DNA of 64,000 nt from Lacinutrix sp. C3R15 (GCF_018860825.1 NZ_JAHKPZ010000012.1:62001-126000); one strand, 5' to 3'; counted from the first letter of the stretch, positions 34,218-44,241 are shown. Translations and numbers: made by a program. The notes: a model not told the origin generated them from the sequence alone.

Positions 34218-34886
34218 TTATTCGGTTTTTAGCGATTTAATATCTGTAATTAATTGTGCCACAGAAGCTCTGTTTAAGCCATTATAGATACCTCGAATAT
34301 GTTTATTCTTATCTATTAATAAAAAGTTTTCGGTATGCAGAAAATCATCTATATTTTTTGGTTCTCCCAAATCATTTTCTACAAAATACTGTTCTCTACC
34401 TAAGCTATAAATTTCATTTTTATCACCTGTAACCAAATGCCATTTGTGGTCTATAACCTTATGGTTTTTAGCATATGTTTTTAAAACCGACACAGAATCT
34501 GTGGTTGGCATTACCGAATGCGATAGTAACAATACGTCATCATCTTCTTTAAATACCTCTTGTACCTTAGCCATGTTTCCTGTCATTTTTGGGCATATTC
34601 CTGGGCAGCTAGTAAAAAAGAAATCTGTAATATAAATCTTATTTTCAAAGGTTTTTTGCGTAACCTTTTCTCCTAATTGATTGGTTAATGAAAAGTCTGG
34701 AATTTTATGAAATGCTTTTTCTTCTGCTGTATTAGGCGTTATCCATTTTGGCGTAAAAGATTCGTCGTTATAATATGGTAGGTACGCTACTCTACTGTTT
34801 TCTTCTACTTTTATATTTTCTTTTTTAACTTCTTTATTACAGCTAAAAAAAACCAGCACTAAAAGAATAGATAGGTATTTCATCAT
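34218..34886 (-). CDS. SCO1/SenC family copper-binding lipoprotein
   Basis: The 222-residue protein has lipobox FFSC (Cys16) and a thioredoxin-like SCO domain. The copper ligands are readable: Cys94 and Cys98 in FTSCPGICPK and His184 in DDFLHTENF. SCO proteins deliver copper to, or reduce, the CuA site of cytochrome c oxidase. Here the gene is not near oxidase genes; it is the third gene of an operon (YHYH protein, MORN-repeat protein, SCO) driven by the ECF-type promoter at 36420-36449. A more general copper-handling or thiol role in the envelope stress regulon is therefore possible. It starts 1 base after the upstream stop. Confidence 0.92.
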   Translation of the reverse strand: MMKYLSILLVLVFFSCNKEVKKENIKVEENSRVAYLPYYNDESFTPKWITPNTAEEKAFHKIPDFSLTNQLGEKVTQKTFENKIYITDFFFTSCPGICPKMTGNMAKVQEVFKEDDDVLLLSHSVMPTTDSVSVLKTYAKNHKVIDHKWHLVTGDKNEIYSLGREQYFVENDLGEPKNIDDFLHTENFLLIDKNKHIRGIYNGLNRASVAQLITDIKSLKTE

Positions 34887-34887
34887 A

Positions 34888-35505
34888 TTATTTCTTTTTT
34901 CTAATTACCACTTCATCTTTTAATTGGTAGCAAGAGTTTGCTCGTCGCATACCAAAGATACGACCATTTTTAGCTTCGTAGTTTACGTAAAGTTTTCCGT
35001 TTTCTAACCAAGCTTGTTGCAAGCCATCTTCTTTATCATTTAACAAGTTTCTTTTTTTAGAAAGTTTTCCACTATAAAACCACTTGCGTTCTACACCTTG
35101 TTTTTTTCCGTTTACATAATTAGACTCTGACGCTAAATTACCATTATTCCAATACGCTTTATAACTTCCTTGTAATACATTTTGGTTGTAGAATGATTGT
35201 AATTTAAGCACACCTGTTTCATACCAAACACGATATACTCCTTCTTTTTTTCCGTTATAAAAACCTGTTTTCTCTTTTAGGGTATTGTTGTTATGATATT
35301 TAACAGCATAACCATTAAACGGTTTTTTATTATAATACCAAATACCCTTATTTCCATTTAAAACCAAACTATCTTTATGTACAATATTAGCCTCTATTTC
35401 TATGGTATTTATAGAAACAGCACTCTCCTTTTTTGTTTTCGTTTTAGAATTACAACCAATACAAAGCAGAAAACTTATACATAAAAATAGTTTAATAATT
35501 TTCAT
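34888..35505 (-). CDS. MORN-repeat / YwqK-like exported lipoprotein
   Basis: The 205-residue protein has a lipoprotein signal (FLLCIGC, Cys18). A run of about five MORN-like repeats with the YwqK pattern follows (GVYRVWYETGVLKLQSFYNQ, GSYKAYWNNGNLASESNYVN, GVERKWFYSGKLSKKRNLLN). Such proteins are often annotated as YwqK-family antitoxins, but no toxin gene is adjacent and the protein is exported, so that label should not be taken literally. A structural or binding role in the envelope is more likely. It directly abuts the YHYH gene (stop and start adjacent) and the SCO gene. Confidence 0.8.
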   Translation of the reverse strand: MKIIKLFLCISFLLCIGCNSKTKTKKESAVSINTIEIEANIVHKDSLVLNGNKGIWYYNKKPFNGYAVKYHNNNTLKEKTGFYNGKKEGVYRVWYETGVLKLQSFYNQNVLQGSYKAYWNNGNLASESNYVNGKKQGVERKWFYSGKLSKKRNLLNDKEDGLQQAWLENGKLYVNYEAKNGRIFGMRRANSCYQLKDEVVIRKKK

Positions 35506-36396
35506 CTAGTAACCTTGGTAAGGTCCTGCAAATGCTATATACGAACCTGTATTAGAGTATAATTCATTAATAATATGGTAGTGGTATTCTTCTTCGCCAT
35601 CGGTGTATTGCGTAGCACTTGTATGTCCTCCTGAAGCATCTAAATCTGTAGGATATGTTCCTGTTGAAATACATTTTCTTCCGTAAAGAAAAACGCCATC
35701 TAACAATACACCAACTAAGTTATCATCGTCATCTGAAAATGCAACAGGTTCTAAGTGATAGTGATATACACCAGGACCAATATGAGCACCTGTCCAATCT
35801 AAACTAGCAGCAGCAGCATCTAATGCACCACCACCTTCTTGATCATTAAATATAGAAGCACCACTTACAGCAATACCAATGGTATCAAAATTTGTACTAA
35901 CAGTATTACCTGTTAAATCTGGAGTTGCATCTACAGTAATTGTTACTGCATTGTTGTTACTTGACATAACAGAAGGTGTTAAATCTACATCTGGTTCTTC
36001 TCTATATAATTCATGACCAACTCCCCAATATACCGTTTCATGATCTGGTAAACCTGTAGTTTCAATAACAACAGATGCACCATCATTAGATAGGTAAATA
36101 TCTGTTGCTTCTGTATTAAAAGCACCATATGCAGCGTGTAAAGTTGCTGTTACTCCTGATTCTGAATTGGCATCAGTATCATCAGAATCTGAATTATTAC
36201 TCACATAACCATCTGGTTGTGTTGCAGAAGAAACAGAAACGTCTGGATTACCAAAACCATCGCCATCTAAATCTTGATACCAAGTAAATTCTTCTGTTGC
36301 CTCTTCTTCACTAGTGTTATTATCATCACTTGAACAGGCAATAAATCCTGTTGTTAAAAAGGACGCTAGAAGTGTAATTTTAAATAGGTTTTTCAT
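35506..36396 (-). CDS. YHYH-domain exported lipoprotein with Asp-rich segment
   Basis: The 296-residue protein has a lipoprotein signal ([11 protein letters not shown], Cys about 21). An Asp-rich calcium-site-like stretch follows ([16 protein letters not shown], residues about 39-54). The C-terminal YHYH domain has [24 protein letters not shown] and [16 protein letters not shown] proteins are of unknown function; the conserved His/Tyr clusters suggest metal binding. It has its own ECF-type promoter 24 bases upstream (36420-36449) and heads the operon with the MORN and SCO1 genes. It is one of four YHYH genes in 6 kb. Confidence 0.85.
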
Positions 36397-36419: not shown

Positions 36420-36449
36420 TTTAGATGCATAAATTAAAAATAACTTGCG
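36420..36449 (-). promoter_or_regulatory. ECF-type promoter, copy 1 (YHYH-MORN-SCO1 operon)
   Basis: On the minus strand CGCAAGTT, 14 bases, CATCTAAA. The -10 element ends 24 bases before the ATG at 36396, giving a predicted leader of about 17 bases. The two boxes and the 14-base spacing are identical to copies 2 and 4. Confidence 0.8.
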
Positions 36450-36486
36450 AAACTTTATTAATTCCTTCTTTTTTGTGTTTCTCTCC

Positions 36487-37632
36487 TTATGGTCTTTGCT
36501 TTTTTTCTCTGGATAGGTTTTCTAATTCTTCTTTAGATATATAATTATCGTTGTTTGTATCTATTTTATCAAAATCCTGTTTTAACGGTCCTTTTATTTC
36601 TGCAGCTGTTAGTTTTCCGTCTTTATTGGTGTCCATTTTTTGCATCACTTGTGAAGCGTTAGGTTTTCCGTCAGATTGATTTCCTCTTGGACCTCCTTGA
36701 CCGTTTGATGGTGGAGGCCCTTGTTGGTCTTGCTCTACTTCACCCATTACACAGCGACCAACATATGGAAATTCGTTAGTTACTAAATACATATAATTAC
36801 CATCTATTTCTATTCCGTTGCATTCGTCTAAATCCCCATAGCCTTCTATATATTCATAATCAGAACCATAAGTACCATCATGATGGCCTTTTACTTCTAT
36901 ATCAATGGTTATGTGTGTTGTATAAGTACAATCTTCACCTTCTCTATCTCCTTCTAAAAGTTTAAAACTTGGTTTGTATTTTCCACTTTTTGAATAATAC
37001 ATAGGAAAACCATCATGAGCAAAACCAATATGTACTAAATCATTTCCTGTATCAAATGTTTCAATCATTGAAGTTGGTGTACCATGATAATGATACTCAC
37101 CTGTTGGTTGTACATGTGCATGATTAAGATCTAAACCTAAGTCTATTACATTTTGTATTGCTTCTACTCTGTAATTTTCTCCTGTTTCACATACAACAAC
37201 CTCTGCGGTTTGAGGTTCAAATTTCACGCCGTTTAAGGCAATTCCTGGTTCACGCATCCATTGTGATTTACCTGTATATTTAGGATTTACGGGAAAACTA
37301 TACGTTTTATTTTGTTCTGAAATGGTATTTGGATTACCTGGATTTGGAAACTGACCGGTTTTATGATTAGGTAATGAATTGGTTATCATTACACGTTGAT
37401 TGCCAATAATAGTAACTTTTGTTTTTGTACCATATGCACTGTCTTCTATTTCATAATCCCCAAAATAATCTGAAACCTTAATCGTTTTAGAATCGTGATT
37501 ATGATTGTTATTATCATGAGTGTGATATTCTAGTCCGTCATGAGTATGCGAGCTATTATTATTATTATAATTTTTACAACCAATAAAAACACTCATTAAA
37601 ATGATGCCTGTTATTATTTTTAGGTTTTTCAT
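36487..37632 (-). CDS. YHYH-domain lipoprotein with His-rich N-terminus and two C-terminal EF-hands
   Basis: The 381-residue protein combines three metal-binding traits. First, a lipoprotein signal (MSVFIGC) is followed by a His-rich stretch (SSHTHDGLEYHTHDNNNHNH, residues about 27-46). Second, a YHYH domain has GEYHYHGTPTSMIE, HIGFAHDGFPMYYS and a Cys-bearing end GRCVMGE. Third, two EF-hands lie near the C-terminus (DTNKDGKLTAAEI and DTNNDNYISKEEL). The His-rich part would favour Cu, Zn or Ni, the EF-hands Ca. It is the last gene of the operon running from 41419, 19 bases after the four-EF-hand gene. The identity of the domains is clear; the function is unknown. Confidence 0.87.
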   Translation of the reverse strand: MKNLKIITGIILMSVFIGCKNYNNNNSSHTHDGLEYHTHDNNNHNHDSKTIKVSDYFGDYEIEDSAYGTKTKVTIIGNQRVMITNSLPNHKTGQFPNPGNPNTISEQNKTYSFPVNPKYTGKSQWMREPGIALNGVKFEPQTAEVVVCETGENYRVEAIQNVIDLGLDLNHAHVQPTGEYHYHGTPTSMIETFDTGNDLVHIGFAHDGFPMYYSKSGKYKPSFKLLEGDREGEDCTYTTHITIDIEVKGHHDGTYGSDYEYIEGYGDLDECNGIEIDGNYMYLVTNEFPYVGRCVMGEVEQDQQGPPPSNGQGGPRGNQSDGKPNASQVMQKMDTNKDGKLTAAEIKGPLKQDFDKIDTNNDNYISKEELENLSREKKQRP

Positions 37633-37651
37633 TTTTAAAATACTAATTCAA

Positions 37652-38188
37652 TTAATCTCTTTCTTTACGCTTAGATTTTCTGTCCTTTTCCTCGGTCATA
37701 TTATTTTCAAAGAAAAATTTTAATTCATCTACATCTAATTCTGCATCTTCATTAGTGTCTATTTCAGTAAAGTTGTTAGATAATTCTTTTTTTCCTTTTG
37801 CTGCAACTTCCAATTCGTTTAGTTTGCCATTTCCATCATCATCAATCTGTTGGATTAGTTTTTCAGGATCTATTTTTTTAGGCTTTTTTCTATCGTTTAA
37901 AGCATCTTTCAATTCTTCTAAATCAATAAATGTGTCACTATTTGTATCTATTTCATCAAAGTGTTCTGCTATTTTACCACGTTTATCTGCTGCAGCTTCG
38001 TCAATATCTATAAGATCATCTTTGTTAGTATCTAGTTTAGACAGAATTTCGGATGCATCTGGTTTACCTTTTTCTTCTTGTCCTCTTCCTCCTCCTTGAC
38101 CACCACCTGGAGGACCTTGAGCAAAAACACCTATGGTAAGTAGTACTGTAAAAAGGGTAAATGTTATTTTTAAGTTGTTAGCTTTCAT
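37652..38188 (-). CDS. Exported four-EF-hand protein
   Basis: The 178-residue protein has a signal peptide (ITFTLFTVLLTIGVFAQ) and a Gly-rich linker. Four EF-hand loops follow in two pairs: DTNKDDLIDIDE, DTNSDTFIDLEE, DDDGNGKLNELE and DTNEDAELDVDE. The last loop is less canonical (Ala/Leu in place of Gly/x). The tail is strongly basic (EEKDRKSKRKERD). It probably binds Ca in the periplasm or at the surface. It overlaps the preceding gene by 11 bases and precedes a YHYH/EF-hand gene, so both are co-expressed. Confidence 0.88.
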   Translation of the reverse strand: MKANNLKITFTLFTVLLTIGVFAQGPPGGGQGGGRGQEEKGKPDASEILSKLDTNKDDLIDIDEAAADKRGKIAEHFDEIDTNSDTFIDLEELKDALNDRKKPKKIDPEKLIQQIDDDGNGKLNELEVAAKGKKELSNNFTEIDTNEDAELDVDELKFFFENNMTEEKDRKSKRKERD

Positions 38189-38786
38189 CTTTTAATTTTT
38201 TAGTTATTTTTTTTCCAAATAGAAATATAGGTATTATGAAAATAGACCATAAATAGTTTTTATTAAATGGCTTAGTTGCTTTAATCATTTTATTATTTTT
38301 AAAAATCAATGCGGATTTATAGTTATTGGTTTCATTTAAAATTACTTTACTAGTATTTTCATTGAATAATAACGAAAAAATAGTTTGATGGTGATTATTT
38401 TCTATAAATGCTTTTACCTCTACGTTTAGACTTTTAAAATTTTTAGGGAGTTCTGAAAGTATAAACTTTGCATCTGTTTGGTGATTTCCTAATTTTATTC
38501 CTCCTTCTAAAAGCGCTACAGATTTACTATTAATATGTAAATTAAAGTTTTCTTTTAAATATTTTACAGCTAATTGCTTGTACTCTACCGTAGGTAGTGT
38601 TTCAAAATCTATATTAGAATAATGTTTTTTTAAAGCTTCGTCTAATCCATTTTGAGCTAAACTAATGTTTAGAATACTAACATTTTCTTTAACTTCTAAG
38701 TAATACATTGCAGACAAAGGGTTGTGTGCAAGTATAGTTTGCATAGACGCAAACACAACCAAAAGAACAATTATTAATTTCTTCAT
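38178..38786 (-). CDS. Exported single-span membrane-anchored protein, paralog of 39769-40374
   Basis: The 202-residue protein has a signal peptide (LIIVLLVVFASMQTILA) followed by His-Asn, a soluble region of about 150 residues, one C-terminal membrane helix (NYLWSIFIIPIFLFG) and a Lys-rich tail. The layout and several motifs (HKxNF-like, GGIKLGNHQTDAKF against SGIVKLGHETKVVF) match the protein at 39769-40374, so the two are paralogs. The exported part loosely recalls DUF6702 or the N-terminal region of HupE-type metal permeases; this is weak. It lies between two YHYH-related genes in the ECF-controlled operon. Confidence 0.7.
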   Translation of the reverse strand: MKKLIIVLLVVFASMQTILAHNPLSAMYYLEVKENVSILNISLAQNGLDEALKKHYSNIDFETLPTVEYKQLAVKYLKENFNLHINSKSVALLEGGIKLGNHQTDAKFILSELPKNFKSLNVEVKAFIENNHHQTIFSLLFNENTSKVILNETNNYKSALIFKNNKMIKATKPFNKNYLWSIFIIPIFLFGKKITKKLKDES

Positions 38787-38788
38787 TT

Positions 38789-39766
38789 TTATTGAAATCT
38801 AAAGTTATTTGTTGCTGCAACACCTTTTAAGCATTTTGGAACATTTGGTGCTTCTGTATTACTAGCAACATAGTGATAAATGCCATCAGGAAACTCTGTT
38901 GTACTTGCTGTAATACCACCACATTCATCTACATTAGCAGGTTCTTCTTGATACGCATATATAGGAAAACCATCTTTGGCAAAACCTATTAGTTTACTTC
39001 CAGAAACTTGATTTACTAATGTACATGTTACATCATTTATGCCGTTAGCTTCTAAAACCTGATTCATTGTTTCTGCAACAAAATGCCAGTGATAATATCC
39101 TGCTGGATCATGATGCCCACCACAAGGGTCTAAAGAAGGAATATTTCCTGCAACTTCATTACCTGGATTAGCAACAGAAGGAGGATCTCCATTAATTGGT
39201 ACACCATCTACAGAAACACCAATTAACTCTACAGAATCTATAGTATTATTACTAGAAGCAAATACTGGCGTTGCTGGAATTAAAAATACTAACAGTAAAT
39301 TATTATCAGGAGCAGCTTCTAGGCAATACGAATAATCTTGATTTACAGGCCCTGAATTAAAATCATCAATATAAATGTTACCAGCATCATCTACAATGTC
39401 ATATCCATCTGCTTCCATAGCATTGAACAGACTAGCTTTCATTACTTGAAAACCCGGATTTGTAGCACCATCATAAATACCTAATCCACCAACATCATTA
39501 ATGGTTGTTGGGCAATATGGTCCGTTATCTACAGGGTTACTAGTAAAGACTAGTTGGTAACAATCTCCTGCAGACCCGTCTTCTAAGGTGCAGTCTATTT
39601 TTTCAAAAGAGACTAATGATGTAGAATTAAAATACGATTCTTGTATAATATCATCTGACAAGTCTACATCATAACTATTTATACCATCATCTTCACTAGT
39701 GCAACCTGTATAACTAAAAACAGATAACAGCATAGTAGCACACCATATTATTTTTTTTGAACTCAT
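38789..39766 (-). CDS. YHYH-domain exported lipoprotein
   Basis: The 325-residue protein has a lipoprotein signal (SVFSYTGC, Cys about 22). It has an N-terminal region shared with the protein at 40412-41419: both have SxxSF/YF-type starts, a C-T/S-L-x-DG segment followed by DCYQL/V, and GPYCP or GPWCP. The C-terminal YHYH domain has GGHHDPAGYYHWHFVAE, LIGFAKDGFPIYAY and DGIYHYVAS. One YHYH copy reads YHWH. Four conserved cysteines suggest disulfides outside the cytoplasm. It is 2 bases from each neighbour, in the operon from 41419. Confidence 0.85.
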   Translation of the reverse strand: MSSKKIIWCATMLLSVFSYTGCTSEDDGINSYDVDLSDDIIQESYFNSTSLVSFEKIDCTLEDGSAGDCYQLVFTSNPVDNGPYCPTTINDVGGLGIYDGATNPGFQVMKASLFNAMEADGYDIVDDAGNIYIDDFNSGPVNQDYSYCLEAAPDNNLLLVFLIPATPVFASSNNTIDSVELIGVSVDGVPINGDPPSVANPGNEVAGNIPSLDPCGGHHDPAGYYHWHFVAETMNQVLEANGINDVTCTLVNQVSGSKLIGFAKDGFPIYAYQEEPANVDECGGITASTTEFPDGIYHYVASNTEAPNVPKCLKGVAATNNFRFQ

Positions 39767-39768
39767 AA

Positions 39769-40374
39769 TTATAATTTTCTAAAAATTAACAGTTTAAATA
39801 ACAAAGCAACACTTAATATACCCAACAAAACAAATAGCCTTTTAGTTGAAAAGAAGTTAGCCTCTTTTATTGTTTTAACAACAAAATTATTTTGATTTGC
39901 TACTAGTTTTAAAGTGTGATTATTTTTATTATTTAGAACAAAATGTTCTTTTTTAAAACCATTTTTTAATAATACCAATGCACTTTTATTGTTAAAAACA
40001 TCTTTAAAAGTACTGTTTTTAACAGATACGTTTTTAATTTCTGAAGGCACTCCTAACACTTCAAAAACAACTTTTGTTTCATGACCTAATTTTACAATTC
40101 CAGAGCTTAACTCTATATTTTGATTGTTATTAATTATAATTTCTATATTATTTTTAACGTGTTCTATAACCATTTGCTTAAACTCTTCTGGTGTATTATA
40201 CTCTGGAAAAAGTGTTTTAATTTCTTGTTGAAAAGCTGTTAATGATGCACTAATTTGAAGTATCCATGTATTATTTTCTTTTTCAACCAACATGGTTGTA
40301 GATGTTTCTGGCTGATGTGCAAAAGCAGAAATATTTATAAATAAAAAAACAAATACTATTATTTTATTAAACAT
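39769..40374 (-). CDS. Exported single-span membrane-anchored protein, paralog of 38178-38786
   Basis: The 201-residue protein has a signal peptide (IIVFVFLFINISAFAHQ), a soluble domain with mature N-terminal His, one C-terminal membrane segment (LFVLLGILSVALLFKLLIF) and a short basic end. Each of the two paralogs stands next to a YHYH lipoprotein, as a repeated gene pair (YHYH plus this protein). That pairing suggests a physical partnership at the inner membrane. No firm family assignment; a distant relation to DUF6702 or HupE N-terminal regions is possible. Confidence 0.7.
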   Translation of the reverse strand: MFNKIIVFVFLFINISAFAHQPETSTTMLVEKENNTWILQISASLTAFQQEIKTLFPEYNTPEEFKQMVIEHVKNNIEIIINNNQNIELSSGIVKLGHETKVVFEVLGVPSEIKNVSVKNSTFKDVFNNKSALVLLKNGFKKEHFVLNNKNNHTLKLVANQNNFVVKTIKEANFFSTKRLFVLLGILSVALLFKLLIFRKL

Positions 40375-40411
40375 AATTAAAGATTTTAAAAAAGATGAAA
40401 CAATATGGTTT

Positions 40412-41419
40412 TTAGTTTATGGCGTAAGCCCCTTTTAAACCATTAATAAAATTGTTGTTACCAGCTTGGTCAACATGATAATGATAACCACGAGTATCAT
40501 CTGTATGACCTCTTAGCACATCTAAATCTGTTGGAGAATTCCCATCTTCATCTTCTAATTCATAAATACCATTTCCATCTAAAGCGTAACCAATTAAAGC
40601 TGCATGCCCATCTGTTTGTTCTATTTTAGTACTAAAACCAGTTGCAGCATGATAATGATACCCTTGATTTACATTAATATGTCCACCTGCATCATCAAAA
40701 GGAGCAATAGTATATGCACCAAGAATATTATCTACAGGAGCAGGTGCAGAAAACTCTATACCATTTAAAGCTATACCACGAGTGGAAGGAGCTGTATTAC
40801 CTGGTCCTCCAACTCCTGTTGCAAAAAAAGTATTTGTATCTTGAAGTACTGGATTTATAGGAATTAGCCATGTTTGCGTTAAATTTGCGATATAAGAAGG
40901 TAAACATTCTACACAAAAATTCTCATATTCTTCACTTACATTTGGATTAGCGGCATTAATACAATCGTCTTCTGTTTCGGTAATATAAATATCACCATTA
41001 CTATCATACATCATCCAATTATTATCATTATAAAAAGTAGCCAGGTTTTCTATAAAAGCACCATCTACATCATAAACCTCACCTCCATCTAGCCAAATAC
41101 CTCCTGCTGAAGCATCATCTGCAATATTATCAGGACACCATGGACCCATTTCGTGATCTGAAGGAGCACTACTTGTTACTACTTGGTAGCAATCTGTTGT
41201 TGTACCATCTGATAATGTACAAGGCACTGTAGTTATAGTTACAGATCCATCTGCTGTTGTAAAATAAGATGAATTTACAGAAACTACTACATTATCTGTA
41301 TTTGTATCATCTTCTAAATCTGATACACTATTACTGTCATCACTACTACAAGATATAGTACTTGTTATAAGTATTAATGCAATTGCTAATAATGAATTTT
41401 TTAAAAATATCTTTCTCAT
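40412..41419 (-). CDS. YHYH-domain exported lipoprotein, first gene of the ECF-controlled operon
   Basis: The frame is open from 41476, but the ECF-type promoter at 41444-41473 overlaps that ATG, so the start at 41419 (MRKIFLKNSLLAIALILITS) is preferred; it gives a lipoprotein signal ending STISC. The 335-residue product has a Cys-bearing middle region and a C-terminal YHYH domain with two motif copies: NQGYHYHAATGFS and TRGYHYHVDQAG, with GYALDGNGIYE between them. It heads a six-gene operon (YHYH, membrane protein, YHYH, membrane protein, EF-hand, YHYH/EF-hand). Probable role: envelope metal binding. Confidence 0.85.
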   Translation of the reverse strand: MRKIFLKNSLLAIALILITSTISCSSDDSNSVSDLEDDTNTDNVVVSVNSSYFTTADGSVTITTVPCTLSDGTTTDCYQVVTSSAPSDHEMGPWCPDNIADDASAGGIWLDGGEVYDVDGAFIENLATFYNDNNWMMYDSNGDIYITETEDDCINAANPNVSEEYENFCVECLPSYIANLTQTWLIPINPVLQDTNTFFATGVGGPGNTAPSTRGIALNGIEFSAPAPVDNILGAYTIAPFDDAGGHINVNQGYHYHAATGFSTKIEQTDGHAALIGYALDGNGIYELEDEDGNSPTDLDVLRGHTDDTRGYHYHVDQAGNNNFINGLKGAYAIN

Positions 41420-41443
41420 AATTTCCGTTTTTAAGTGTTTATA

Positions 41444-41473
41444 TTTAGATGAACTATAAAAAAAAAACTTGCG
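41444..41473 (-). promoter_or_regulatory. ECF-type promoter, copy 2 (six-gene YHYH/EF-hand operon)
   Basis: CGCAAGTT, 14 bases, CATCTAAA on the minus strand. The -10 ends 25 bases before the ATG at 41419. It overlaps the alternative upstream ATG, which settles the start choice. Confidence 0.8.
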
Positions 41474-41491
41474 CATGCCATTCGTTTTTTT

Positions 41492-42244
41492 TTAAAAATT
41501 ACTTAATTCTTTATTTAATTTAAAGGCTATAGTTTCGGTTTTAATTTTTAAAACTTTACTATTCAATAATTGTTTTTCTGTTTGCAAAAGCCTATCTACC
41601 AAAGCATTTTGATACTCTCTGCTATTTAAAAGTGATAAATAATTAGATTGCTGTGTAAAAGATTTTGCTTTTTTAAAATCTATTCCGCGTTTAGAAATAA
41701 GATCTATTAAAGAAACATGCAGTTCTATTGCAGGCTGTAGACGGTTAACAATAATATTTTCAATTTTATTTTCCTGACTTTCAAAACTATCTAACTCGTT
41801 AGGATAAGAAGCAATAAGGTCTTTTAATATAACACTTTCTATAAATTCAAATTTATTGGTACTATTTACAGAGTTTATTGCTCCGTTATGCAATTGGGTT
41901 GGTTTATAGTTTAGCTTGATGATTCCTTCTTTTATTTTGTCTGTTAAATCCTCCTCATCTAATCCAATACTCTTAATTGTTGTATTTATTATTTCTAAGT
42001 CTTCTGTATATCTTGAAATGGAGGAATCTAATAGCATTAAATTAGAATTTAACTCTTCATTTAAAGATTGATAAATTTTAATTTCTACAATTTTATTTTT
42101 TCTTATTTCATTTAAGTTATTGATTTTCCATGCGATTAAAATACCAATAACGATTAGTACAATTTCACCTAAGGCATAAACCATGTAACTTTTTGCTTTA
42201 CCAGAGATCAAGAGGGTACGTCTAATTTTTCTAAAAATTTTCAT
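41492..42244 (-). CDS. DUF6090-like single-span membrane protein
   Basis: The 250-residue protein begins with the pattern typical of this Bacteroidota family: a short basic N-terminus (MKIFRKIRRTLLISGK), then one membrane helix YALGEIVLIVIGILIAWKIN, then a helical periplasmic region. No enzyme motif is present. It has no copy of the ECF-type promoter and lies after the EF-hand gene terminator, so it may be transcribed separately, although it sits between two sigma-controlled units. The function is unknown. Confidence 0.72.
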   Translation of the reverse strand: MKIFRKIRRTLLISGKAKSYMVYALGEIVLIVIGILIAWKINNLNEIRKNKIVEIKIYQSLNEELNSNLMLLDSSISRYTEDLEIINTTIKSIGLDEEDLTDKIKEGIIKLNYKPTQLHNGAINSVNSTNKFEFIESVILKDLIASYPNELDSFESQENKIENIIVNRLQPAIELHVSLIDLISKRGIDFKKAKSFTQQSNYLSLLNSREYQNALVDRLLQTEKQLLNSKVLKIKTETIAFKLNKELSNF

Positions 42245-42281
42245 ATTTACAACTCTTATTAAATTATGTTATAGGTGTAAA

Positions 42282-42311
42282 AAAGGCTTCATATTTACGT
42301 ATGAAGCCTTT
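42282..42311 (-). terminator. Terminator after the small EF-hand gene
   Basis: AAAGGCTTCATA and TATGAAGCCTTT form a perfect 12-bp stem with a 6-base loop, followed on the minus strand by T residues, 30 bases after the stop at 42341. Confidence 0.88.
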
Positions 42312-42340
42312 AATTAACTATCTAAAAACTATACACTATT

Positions 42341-42625
42341 TTATCTTTTTCCTCTTCCCTTTGGTTTAGGAGCTTCCTCTAATTCTTCTTCTGAAATAAA
42401 ACCATCTTCATCTGTATCAATTGTAGAAAACTCATCTTTTAAAGGCCCTTTTACTTCATCTTCAGAAAGTTTACCGTCTTCATCGGCATCCATTTCTTCT
42501 AACATTTCACTAAATGTTGGAGGTGTTTTTTGTTGTCTGTCTTGTGATTGTGCAAAACTTGAATTAGTCATACATACTGTTAATGTAAAAACGAATACTA
42601 TTGTTTTAAATGTGTTACTTTTCAT
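42341..42625 (-). CDS. Small exported EF-hand protein
   Basis: The 94-residue protein has a signal peptide (TIVFVFTLTVCMTNSSFAQ) and one pair of EF-hands, DADEDGKLSEDEV and DTDEDGFISEEEL, with a basic tail (KPKGRGKR). The loops are fully canonical for calcium. It is monocistronic, with its own ECF-type promoter (42653-42682) and strong terminator, immediately downstream of the sigma-factor operon. It could act as a Ca buffer or sensor in the periplasm. Confidence 0.9.
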   Translation of the reverse strand: MKSNTFKTIVFVFTLTVCMTNSSFAQSQDRQQKTPPTFSEMLEEMDADEDGKLSEDEVKGPLKDEFSTIDTDEDGFISEEELEEAPKPKGRGKR

Positions 42626-42652
42626 AATTAAAATATTTTATTGTTATGTACT

Positions 42653-42682
42653 TTTAGATGCTAGTAAATGATTTTACTTGTG
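42653..42682 (-). promoter_or_regulatory. ECF-type promoter, copy 3 (small EF-hand gene)
   Basis: On the minus strand CACAAGTA, 14 bases, CATCTAAA. The -10 is identical to the other copies and the spacing is the same; the -35 is degenerate (CACAAGTA for CGCAAGTT). The -10 ends 28 bases before the ATG. Confidence 0.7.
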
Positions 42683-42710
42683 GCGTAATTTGTTAAATAA
42701 AAGCCAAAAA

Positions 42711-42737
42711 AAAAGCACCTTATTAAAAAGTGCTTTT
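42711..42737 (-). terminator. Terminator of the sigma-factor operon
   Basis: AAAAGCAC and GTGCTTTT form an 8-bp stem with an 11-base loop followed by a long T run on the minus strand, 11 bases after the stop of the CpxP-like gene. Confidence 0.8.
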
Positions 42738-42747
42738 GCTGTTTGTA

Positions 42748-43272
42748 TTAAAAATCATTAGGAGGTGGAGGTCTATGTCCATTTTCACCTTCTGGAGGAC
42801 CTTGTTGTCCGTTTGGATGAGGAGGTCTATCTTCATTTTCTCCTCTTCTTAAGGCATCTTTTAATATGTTCTTTAATTTTTCTTTTTGCTTATCATTACA
42901 TAAGTCTTGAATACTTTTAAAATGGTAAAATATTTCTGTTTCAATAACTTTTTGCTTATTACCTATTAACGATGTTAAAGAATCTACGGTTTTTTCATTT
43001 ACAGAATCACTAGATAAATTATTAAAAAGAGCATCTTTTAACTCTTTTAAAGCATCATTAATTTGCATCATGTTTGCATGATGTTTATTATTTAATTTTT
43101 CAAAACTTTGAGATTGTGATTCGGTAAAATTTAATTGTTGTTTTATAAAACTAACAGGTTTTTTACCTTCATTTCTTTTATTATTTTGATTATTAAAAGA
43201 ATTCACGAGGTAATAGCCATTTACTACAATTAAAAAAGCTAAAAAAACGTATAAAATTGTGTTCTTTTTCAT
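42748..43272 (-). CDS. CpxP/CnrX-like periplasmic metal or stress sensor
   Basis: The 174-residue protein has an N-terminal membrane anchor (ILYVFLAFLIVVNGYYLV) and a helical periplasmic part of about 110 residues with a FTESQSQSFEKLNNKHHANM segment, the place where Spy/CpxP/CnrX proteins carry LTxxQ. A Pro/Gly/His-rich tail follows (GQQGPPEGENGHRPPPPNDF). Periplasmic heavy-metal sensors of this kind (CnrX) relay Ni or Co binding to an anti-sigma factor. The gene is third in the operon after the sigma factor and a small membrane protein, matching the Cnr three-part layout. Several His and Met residues (HHANMM, YHF) could bind metal. The call is by architecture and context. Confidence 0.72.
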   Translation of the reverse strand: MKKNTILYVFLAFLIVVNGYYLVNSFNNQNNKRNEGKKPVSFIKQQLNFTESQSQSFEKLNNKHHANMMQINDALKELKDALFNNLSSDSVNEKTVDSLTSLIGNKQKVIETEIFYHFKSIQDLCNDKQKEKLKNILKDALRRGENEDRPPHPNGQQGPPEGENGHRPPPPNDF

Positions 43273-43277
43273 TTACA

Positions 43278-43589
43278 TTAGTTTAATAAAGTATTAGTAT
43301 CACTGGCAGAAAACCCATAAGACTCTGCAAGTTGATTAATATTTTCATCATAACTCGTTTTATTAAGTTGCTTAAACGCTACTACATTTAAAACAATAAC
43401 GCAAGCCAAAGTAGCAAGTTGTAACTTTGGTGTAAACCATGACCAAGCAACTTTTTCTTCTTCTTTTTTAGAAAACATACGTTGCATGGTTTTATCTTTA
43501 AAAAAAGGAGAAACAGGCACTTGTTTAATTGCTTCTGCAGCTTTAAACGTATTTTCTATTTTTTCTTGAATATTATTATTTGCTTTCAT
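43278..43589 (-). CDS. Small single-span membrane protein, candidate anti-sigma factor
   Basis: The 103-residue protein has a cytoplasmic N-terminal part of about 45 residues, helical and charged (IQEKIENTFKAAEAIKQV), one membrane helix (LQLATLACVIVLNVVAFKQL) and a short outer end. Topology and position, 36 bases after the ECF sigma gene and 5 bases before the CpxP-like gene, fit a minimal anti-sigma like CnrY. No zinc-binding (ZAS) motif is seen. An ECF-type promoter ends only 5 bases before its ATG, so an mRNA from that promoter would be leaderless or nearly so. The function is inferred. Confidence 0.65.
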   Translation of the reverse strand: MKANNNIQEKIENTFKAAEAIKQVPVSPFFKDKTMQRMFSKKEEEKVAWSWFTPKLQLATLACVIVLNVVAFKQLNKTSYDENINQLAESYGFSASDTNTLLN

Positions 43590-43594
43590 GTATA

Positions 43595-43624
43595 TTTAGA
43601 TGCATAAAGTTTTAAAAACTTGCG
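43595..43624 (-). promoter_or_regulatory. ECF-type promoter, copy 4 (between the sigma factor and the candidate anti-sigma)
   Basis: CGCAAGTT, 14 bases, CATCTAAA lies in the 36-base gap right after the sigma-gene stop. It would raise expression of the candidate anti-sigma and sensor without the sigma factor, a negative-feedback arrangement. The -10 ends 5 bases before the ATG at 43589. Confidence 0.78.
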
Positions 43625-43625
43625 T

Positions 43626-44204
43626 TTAATTTTCATTTTTATAAAAGTGTTCTAGTGATTTTTGTAAATTCTTTTTAGCTCTAAATAAAAGGGATTCTAT
43701 AGAACTAATACTTTTTTCTGTAATTTCACTTATTTCCTTGTAACTTTTATCATCAATTTTATTTAATGTAAATACTAATCTTTGTGCTTCTGGCAACTGG
43801 TTAATAGCTAAAAATAAAGTTTTACTTGTTTCTTTTTGTTCTAAAACAATACCTGGATGGTTTATTTCTGTGAAATAATTTGTTTTATCTATTTCAAAAT
43901 CATTTCCTGTAAGCGATTGTAAAAAAGCAAATCGTTTTTTGGTATTCTTTTTTCTTATAAACTCTAGACACTTATTGGTGGTAATTCTATAAATCCATGT
44001 AGATAATTTAGAGTTTCCTTTAAATTTATGAATAGAATTAAAAACTTCAACAAAAACATCTTGTGCTATGTCTTCAGCATCTTCTTTATTTGGCACAAAG
44101 GAGATACAAGTAGCAAAAACCTTTTGTTGAAAAAGGTCTATTAGCTTTGCATAGGCAAATTGCTTTCCTGCTTTTAAATCATTTATAAAACCCTGCTCTT
44201 CCAA
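43626..44204 (-). CDS. ECF-family RNA polymerase sigma factor
   Basis: The 192-residue protein has sigma region 2 (EDAEDIAQDVFVEVFNSIHK, LSTWIYRITTNKCLEFIRKK) and region 4 (LPEAQRLVFTLNKIDDKSYK, EISEITEKSISSIESLLFRA), with no region 1 or 3. It directs RNA polymerase to alternative promoters. Four local promoters with one shared motif are the likely targets. The next genes are a small membrane protein and a CpxP/CnrX-like sensor, so activity is probably held at the membrane until an envelope signal, perhaps metal, is sensed. The gene itself has no copy of the motif upstream. Confidence 0.93.
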   Translation of the reverse strand: MEEQGFINDLKAGKQFAYAKLIDLFQQKVFATCISFVPNKEDAEDIAQDVFVEVFNSIHKFKGNSKLSTWIYRITTNKCLEFIRKKNTKKRFAFLQSLTGNDFEIDKTNYFTEINHPGIVLEQKETSKTLFLAINQLPEAQRLVFTLNKIDDKSYKEISEITEKSISSIESLLFRAKKNLQKSLEHFYKNEN

Positions 44205-44241
44205 AAACTTATTTTAAAATGTGTAAAGTATAAAAAATAAC

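Follow-up and report, generated by a model that had tools for sequence, protein, structure and literature searches.

In the CnrYXH system of Cupriavidus metallidurans, the extracytoplasmic function (ECF) sigma factor CnrH is accompanied by the class II anti-sigma CnrY and by CnrX, a periplasmic nickel/cobalt sensor; among the proteins with the Spy/CnrX fold, CnrX and NccX are the ones for which gating of an ECF sigma is known. In another well-known type of ECF sigma, the RpoE consensus is a two-box promoter, with a geometry that resembles the motif described below. Here we analyze a stretch of 64,000 nucleotides from Lacinutrix sp. C3R15 (NZ_JAHKPZ010000012.1:62001-126000; the window), in which an ECF sigma gene is followed by genes for a probable anti-sigma and a CnrX-like sensor, and four copies of one two-box motif, which is very probably the recognition signal of this sigma itself, stand ahead of neighboring genes. 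Common to CnrYXH and the present module are an ECF sigma, a short, putative or established anti-sigma with a single transmembrane (TM) helix, and a sensor that is anchored by one TM helix and has the same predicted fold. The promoters and the regulatory genes are the following (positions in the window).

43626..44204, minus strand: ECF sigma factor with regions 2 and 4, starting at TTG (Pfam PF04542, PF08281; orthologs in relatives)
43595..43624, minus strand: promoter between the sigma stop codon and the anti-sigma start, predicted to be sigma-dependent; ATG 5 bases past the −10 box
43278..43589, minus strand: probable anti-sigma, 103 amino acids, with no database family; assigned from its location and topology
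42748..43272, minus strand: membrane-anchored periplasmic sensor, predicted Spy/CnrX fold (AlphaFold2 model with pLDDT 85, PDB match, Spy profile match)
42711..42737, minus strand: terminator-like hairpin at the end of the anti-sigma/sensor unit
42653..42682, minus strand: promoter of a small EF-hand gene, −35 box CACAAGTA, predicted to be sigma-dependent; ATG 27 bases downstream
41444..41473, minus strand: promoter of a six-gene YHYH/DUF6702/EF-hand operon, exact match, predicted to be sigma-dependent; ATG 24 bases downstream
36420..36449, minus strand: promoter of a YHYH-MORN-SCO1 operon, exact CGCAAGTT-N14-CATCTAAA, predicted to be sigma-dependent; ATG 23 bases downstream

A first-pass annotation of the window had claimed four minus-strand copies of one ECF-type promoter, each ending 5 to 28 bases before a start codon. 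All four were re-found with their coordinates and boxes: the spacer is exactly 14 bases in every copy, both boxes are perfect in three of the four (CGCAAGTT-N14-CATCTAAA), and the copy at 42653-42682 has CACAAGTA rather than CGCAAGTT (two mismatches) as its −35 box. The distances from the −10 end to the ATG are 23, 24, 27 and 5 bases. When up to three mismatches were allowed, five matches were found in the window compared to 1.0 expected from shuffles. As the annotation had also stated, the −10 box elsewhere in the window lacks a matching −35 box (25 copies of CATCTAAA, just four with a −35 partner), and a profile of the sigma encoded at 43626-44204 yields no second sigma gene in the window. 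This sigma consists of 192 amino acids and matches PF04542, PF08281 and TIGR02937 over the cut-off; with regions 2 and 4, no region 3 domain and a length of about 190 amino acids, it has the architecture of an ECF (group 4) sigma. Of the listed models, only that of the general ECF superfamily scores over its curated cut-off; those of the named sigma families do not.

Over the whole genome (3.61 Mb), three exact matches to the pattern were found at spacers of 12 to 16 bases, in each case in the window (reversed control, 0). The genome search used a pattern with up to two mismatches rather than a position weight matrix, and because two-mismatch sites are indistinguishable from chance (18 genome-wide matches with ≤2 mismatches vs. 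13 in the reversed control), only sites with ≤1 mismatch were counted. For CRCAAGTT-N14-CATCTAAA, there are six such sites, four in the window and two elsewhere (backward control, 0). The two near-exact outside sites precede, respectively, a CotH protein gene (C35:455508) and the gene for a type IX-secretion protein of 727 amino acids (C3:74052); a CHU_C type IX-secretion domain is present in the homolog of the latter from genome G002. Similar proteins are also encoded behind sites in G001, G002, G003 and G005. The copies thus precede genes, mostly beside the sigma gene, instead of being scattered at random, and the local sigma regulon that the first-pass annotation had proposed stands with respect to the four window copies but is incomplete, given the two sites elsewhere.

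The motif also co-occurs with the sigma gene. A set of 159 genomes of the family was used, with a completeness of ≥90% and almost every genome from a genus of its own. The exact motif in its CR form was found in 21 of the 22 genomes with a sigma ortholog and in 0 of the 137 genomes without one; the backward control of the exact form gave zero in each of the 159 genomes. The same pattern was observed in an earlier set of 60 genomes. In that set, the incomplete genome G004, where no sigma ortholog was found, contains one one-mismatch site, with the contig ending 91 bases downstream; six further one-mismatch matches in other sigma-negative genomes look like chance because the backward control yields a similar number. 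Distant (trans) sites were found only in sigma-bearing genomes, save for the one-mismatch site in G004.

The sigma orthologs form a distinct class, with 73 to 94% identity in 7 of 59 relatives and 42% for the next. In each of these seven relatives, between three and five motif copies were found in the corresponding region, every one with a spacer of 14 and all downstream of sigma, the exception being one upstream copy in G023. A collection of 80 sigma loci was then assembled from named genomes by protein similarity to the sigma alone; 77 of these show 63 to 94% sigma identity, and three, from Bacteroidales and Crocinitomicaceae, show 48 to 50%. At all 80 loci, the boxes of the best site past the sigma stop codon are separated by exactly 14 bases, with 11 to 17 permitted; this site contains no mismatches at 38 loci, one at 28, two at 9 and three at 5. 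Thus, 66 of the 80 post-sigma sites have ≤1 mismatch, compared to 2 of 400 random windows from the same loci and 0 of 400 shuffled windows; typical random windows of the sigma loci show 5 to 7 mismatches, and the good ones among them are probably real sites struck by chance. The resulting consensus is CRCAAGTTTTT, an A/T-rich stretch and RCATCTAAA, that is, CRCAAGTTTTT-N10-RCATCTAAA. The refuting conditions named in the first-pass annotation that could be examined, random scatter of the copies and a lack of conservation in relatives, both came out in favor of the proposed regulon: the copies lie before genes, the site is kept with an unchanging spacer at each of the 80 orthologous loci and disappears where the sigma gene is missing, a matching site also precedes homologous YHYH genes in relatives, and in EF-hand homologs the ATG is mostly 24-28 bases past the site. 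Given this conservation and the co-occurrence, the sigma appears to have a specific promoter common to its own locus and its targets, as is characteristic of ECF sigmas. With one motif and one spacer, over 20 named genera, promoter recognition by a sigma found across a bacterial family is unusually legible.

At two further loci, L027 and L029 (in G040 and G046), the genes for sigma relatives at 42% and 37% identity likewise have those for a short protein with a single TM helix and for a CnrX-like sensor behind them, and −10 boxes resembling CGTCTAA or CGTCAAA lie directly ahead of the anti-sigma start. The architecture of the module may be older than the motif, with the promoter having diverged together with sigma.

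All 80 loci have the promoter between sigma and anti-sigma. A second promoter, ahead of sigma, is found at 35 of the 80 loci and is strong wherever it occurs. On the sigma tree, the upstream promoter requires at least seven changes, or four when only well-supported branches are considered; the clade of the window lacks it. Because only the first of these promoters is universal, the fixed feature of the wiring appears to be the sigma inducing its own inhibitor, and positive autoregulation appears to be labile. In the window, 37 bases (44205-44241) separate sigma from the preceding DEAD-box helicase gene, and there is no motif upstream of sigma, so that either the helicase unit or an internal promoter probably drives sigma expression in this genus. 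In the anti-sigma frame, the first ATG lies 3 to 13 bases past the −10 box in over half of the loci (43589-43602 in the window; L086-L165). Such proximity to the −10 box, with starts expected about 6 to 8 bases past it, suggests that the anti-sigma message is probably leaderless or nearly so.

According to the alignment, the 103 amino acid protein begins with a cytosolic N-terminal part that includes a conserved SPFFKDKTMQRLF, continues with a single TM helix and ends in a short periplasmic tail, and its homologs are found at 78 of the 80 sigma loci; position and topology make it a probable anti-sigma. In the AlphaFold2 model of the sensor (pLDDT 85), a TM helix is followed by a helical hairpin domain. 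When this model was compared with the PDB using Foldseek, CnrX ranked first (E 0.009, probability 1.00, TM-score to target 0.78), with a VirG-like protein, NccX, CpxP, ZraP and Spy among the lower matches, and a profile of 54 sensor homologs matches Spy with E = 1e-5. The sensor is accordingly predicted to share the four-helix fold and the N-terminal membrane anchor of CnrX, and it may work like CnrX as far as fold and position are concerned. Gene order, topology and this predicted fold all back the earlier designation of the two genes as candidate anti-sigma and sensor. PDB sequence searches with single sensor and YHYH sequences returned nothing.

A two-box weight matrix, trained on the post-sigma sites, was used to scan 1.54 Mb around sigma genes and identified 257 sites, compared to 1 in the reversed sequence; 250 of the 257 are oriented as the sigma gene (the window and extra loci having been removed). 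When the two sites beside sigma are left out, YHYH/EF-hand homologs lie behind 113 of 156 sites, a count that uses direct homology labels because clustering of operon genes merged families. Units headed by such genes continue with MORN (38 genes) and SCO1 (37 genes). Further first genes at other sites encode CotH, VTC with DUF4956, Cthe_2159, MauG, Lcl_C and a sulfatase, and a BNR-repeat protein family is represented in motif-headed units at 21 loci. Signal-like N-termini were found in 136 of 144 first genes vs. 66% of background open reading frames, a crude prediction with a loose threshold that is supportive only. Taken at the sequence level, these data indicate that the sigma very probably switches on secreted, largely uncharacterised proteins of metal-binding type. 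No efflux pump was identified among the downstream genes, so that the control of heavy-metal efflux typical of CnrYXH is not apparent here. In the window, the genes in and next to the target units are these.

42341..42625, minus strand: small exported protein with two EF hands (Pfam PF00036 and others)
41492-42244: DUF6090 membrane protein gene between the EF-hand gene and the six-gene operon, without a motif of its own
40412..41419, minus strand: YHYH-domain lipoprotein, gene 1 of the six-gene operon (Pfam PF14240)
39769..40374, minus strand: DUF6702-like exported protein (Pfam PF20420 weak, below cutoff)
38789..39766, minus strand: YHYH-domain lipoprotein (Pfam PF14240)
38178..38786, minus strand: DUF6702-like exported protein (Pfam PF20420 weak, below cutoff)
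37652..38188, minus strand: exported EF-hand protein (Pfam PF13499, PF00036)
36487..37632, minus strand: His-rich YHYH protein with EF hands at the C-terminus (Pfam PF14240, PF13202)
35506..36396, minus strand: YHYH-type lipoprotein, assigned by family alignment; alone, no Pfam match above cutoff
34888..35505, minus strand: MORN-repeat lipoprotein (Pfam PF07661)
34218..34886, minus strand: SCO1/SenC lipoprotein with a CxxxC copper site (Pfam PF02630; CPGIC in the translation)

In the family alignment of the YHYH-type lipoprotein at 35506..36396, Y211 H212 Y213 H214 and Y271 H272 Y273 H274 are invariant; the YHYH protein model is of medium quality (pLDDT 68), with no believable PDB match. Homologs of the DUF6090 protein occur inside motif-headed units at 11 loci. 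Several sites elsewhere have less usual surroundings. A near-identical motif pair, 143 bases apart, has no evident gene behind it (L149, 17982-18011 and 18125-18154) and might mark a small RNA or what remains of a former target. In Flagellimonas and Allomuricauda (L143, L144, L145), a sigma-strand motif lies ~240-290 bases ahead of a gene that looks Rieske-like by eye, and in G005 an identical promoter pair (L052, 6573-6602 and 8846-8875) is followed by an apparently tandemly duplicated EF-hand region.

We consider it highly likely that the adjacent ECF sigma reads the motif within a circuit comprising a single-TM inhibitor, control by a CnrX/Spy-fold protein and negative feedback, a reading that rests on the motif, its fixed spacing, position and conservation, the co-occurrence with sigma and the predicted sensor fold. 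The binding of the motif by sigma itself, the anti-sigma activity, the signal and the physiology of the output are what we infer from these. The adjacent short single-TM protein would keep sigma inactive and would itself be governed from the periplasm by the CnrX/Spy-fold protein; a periplasmic signal sensed by the latter, most likely a metal ion or the state of the envelope, would release sigma. The freed sigma would guide RNA polymerase to the consensus site and turn on several units that encode the exported YHYH, EF-hand, MORN and SCO1 proteins and, elsewhere in the genome, CotH and the type IX-secretion protein, along with its own anti-sigma and sensor, which would amount to built-in negative feedback. 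Several observations weigh against parts of this reading. The Fisher p of about 3e-25 for the co-occurrence overstates independence because genomes share ancestry, although nearly all sampled genomes come from different genera, and ~80 of the 257 weight-matrix sites are not independent because they are the post-sigma sites on which the matrix was trained. The solved structures nearest to the sigma are SigW and RpoE, with CnrH more distant; the anti-sigma profile, compared with solved structures at the sequence level only, does not detect CnrY at E up to 10; and the metal ligands of CnrX are unrecognisable as a set in the sensor sequences, where His64 (98%) is the only near-invariant candidate, followed by Cys125 (85%) and Met68 (78%).

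Co-occurrence by itself cannot tell sigma from another gene that constantly adjoins it, so the motif could conceivably be an operator or promoter element of some other regulator, an activator or a different sigma, travelling with the cluster. However, two boxes with a fixed spacer and an ATG ~25 bases downstream represent promoter geometry, the other conserved neighbors (the small single-TM protein and the periplasmic sensor) have no DNA-binding domain, and far-off trans sites likewise occur only with sigma, bar the one in the incomplete genome; we therefore regard another regulator as improbable. That the copies are a dispersed repeat, that is, mobile or duplicated DNA, might be suggested by the apparently duplicated region in G005, which includes the promoter, but spacers and flanks differ between copies, only the boxes are common, and orientation and start-codon distance are constrained; with the sharing confined to the boxes, the mobile-repeat explanation was rejected and has a negligible chance of being correct. 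A far closer contender, to which we assign somewhat less than an even chance, accepts that sigma reads the motif and holds that what the CnrX-like protein detects is misfolded envelope protein, in the manner of CpxP and Spy, and not a metal. The match to Spy in the profile search, the appearance of CpxP and Spy in the Foldseek list and the lack of the complete CnrX ligand set are compatible with such a sensor, whereas the top rank of CnrX in the fold search and a regulon rich in potential metal binders (EF hands, the CxxxC of SCO1, His-rich YHYH proteins) point to metal. As to which metal, copper is a guess drawn from SCO1 and the His-rich YHYH proteins, and calcium a guess drawn from the EF hands.

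Reading of the motif by the adjacent sigma, combined with a metal signal, would define, in marine Flavobacteriaceae, a metal-responsive periplasmic sigma regulon that had not been described before, with a CnrX-like sensor over YHYH, EF-hand, SCO1, CotH and polyphosphate-type (VTC) proteins, in which sigma always drives its own inhibitor and positive autoregulation comes and goes; we put this forward tentatively, short of considering it the probable case. We found no literature on the function of YHYH, on a sigma regulon of CotH/VTC or on the present module in Bacteroidota. The module would tie several uncharacterised families, namely the YHYH, DUF6702, exported small EF-hand, bacterial CotH and VTC/DUF4956 proteins, to one signal and one sensor, which offers a direct experimental route to the role of these families.

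Compared to CnrYXH, the gene order here is sigma, anti-sigma, sensor; the anti-sigma has no detectable sequence relation to CnrY, and the sensor no recognisable CnrX ligand set; the sigma is nearer to SigW/RpoE than to CnrH; and the targets are YHYH/EF-hand and other exported proteins, with no recognised metal efflux pump. We do not place the module in the CnrYXH family, as its anti-sigma cannot be recognised as a CnrY and no efflux pump was found. ECF sigmas of the RpoE/SigW type are the closest solved relatives of this sigma by sequence, but their box sequences, anti-sigma and sensor all differ from those of the present module. Autoregulation has served to infer the motifs of ECF groups (Staron 2009, cited in Rhodius et al. 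2013, PMC3817407), an approach like ours in deriving the motif from conserved sites beside sigma genes. In contrast to those groups, the universal site here lies between sigma and anti-sigma, and a scan solely upstream of sigma would catch less than half of the loci. Groups of this kind would escape motif searches confined to the stretch ahead of the sigma gene.

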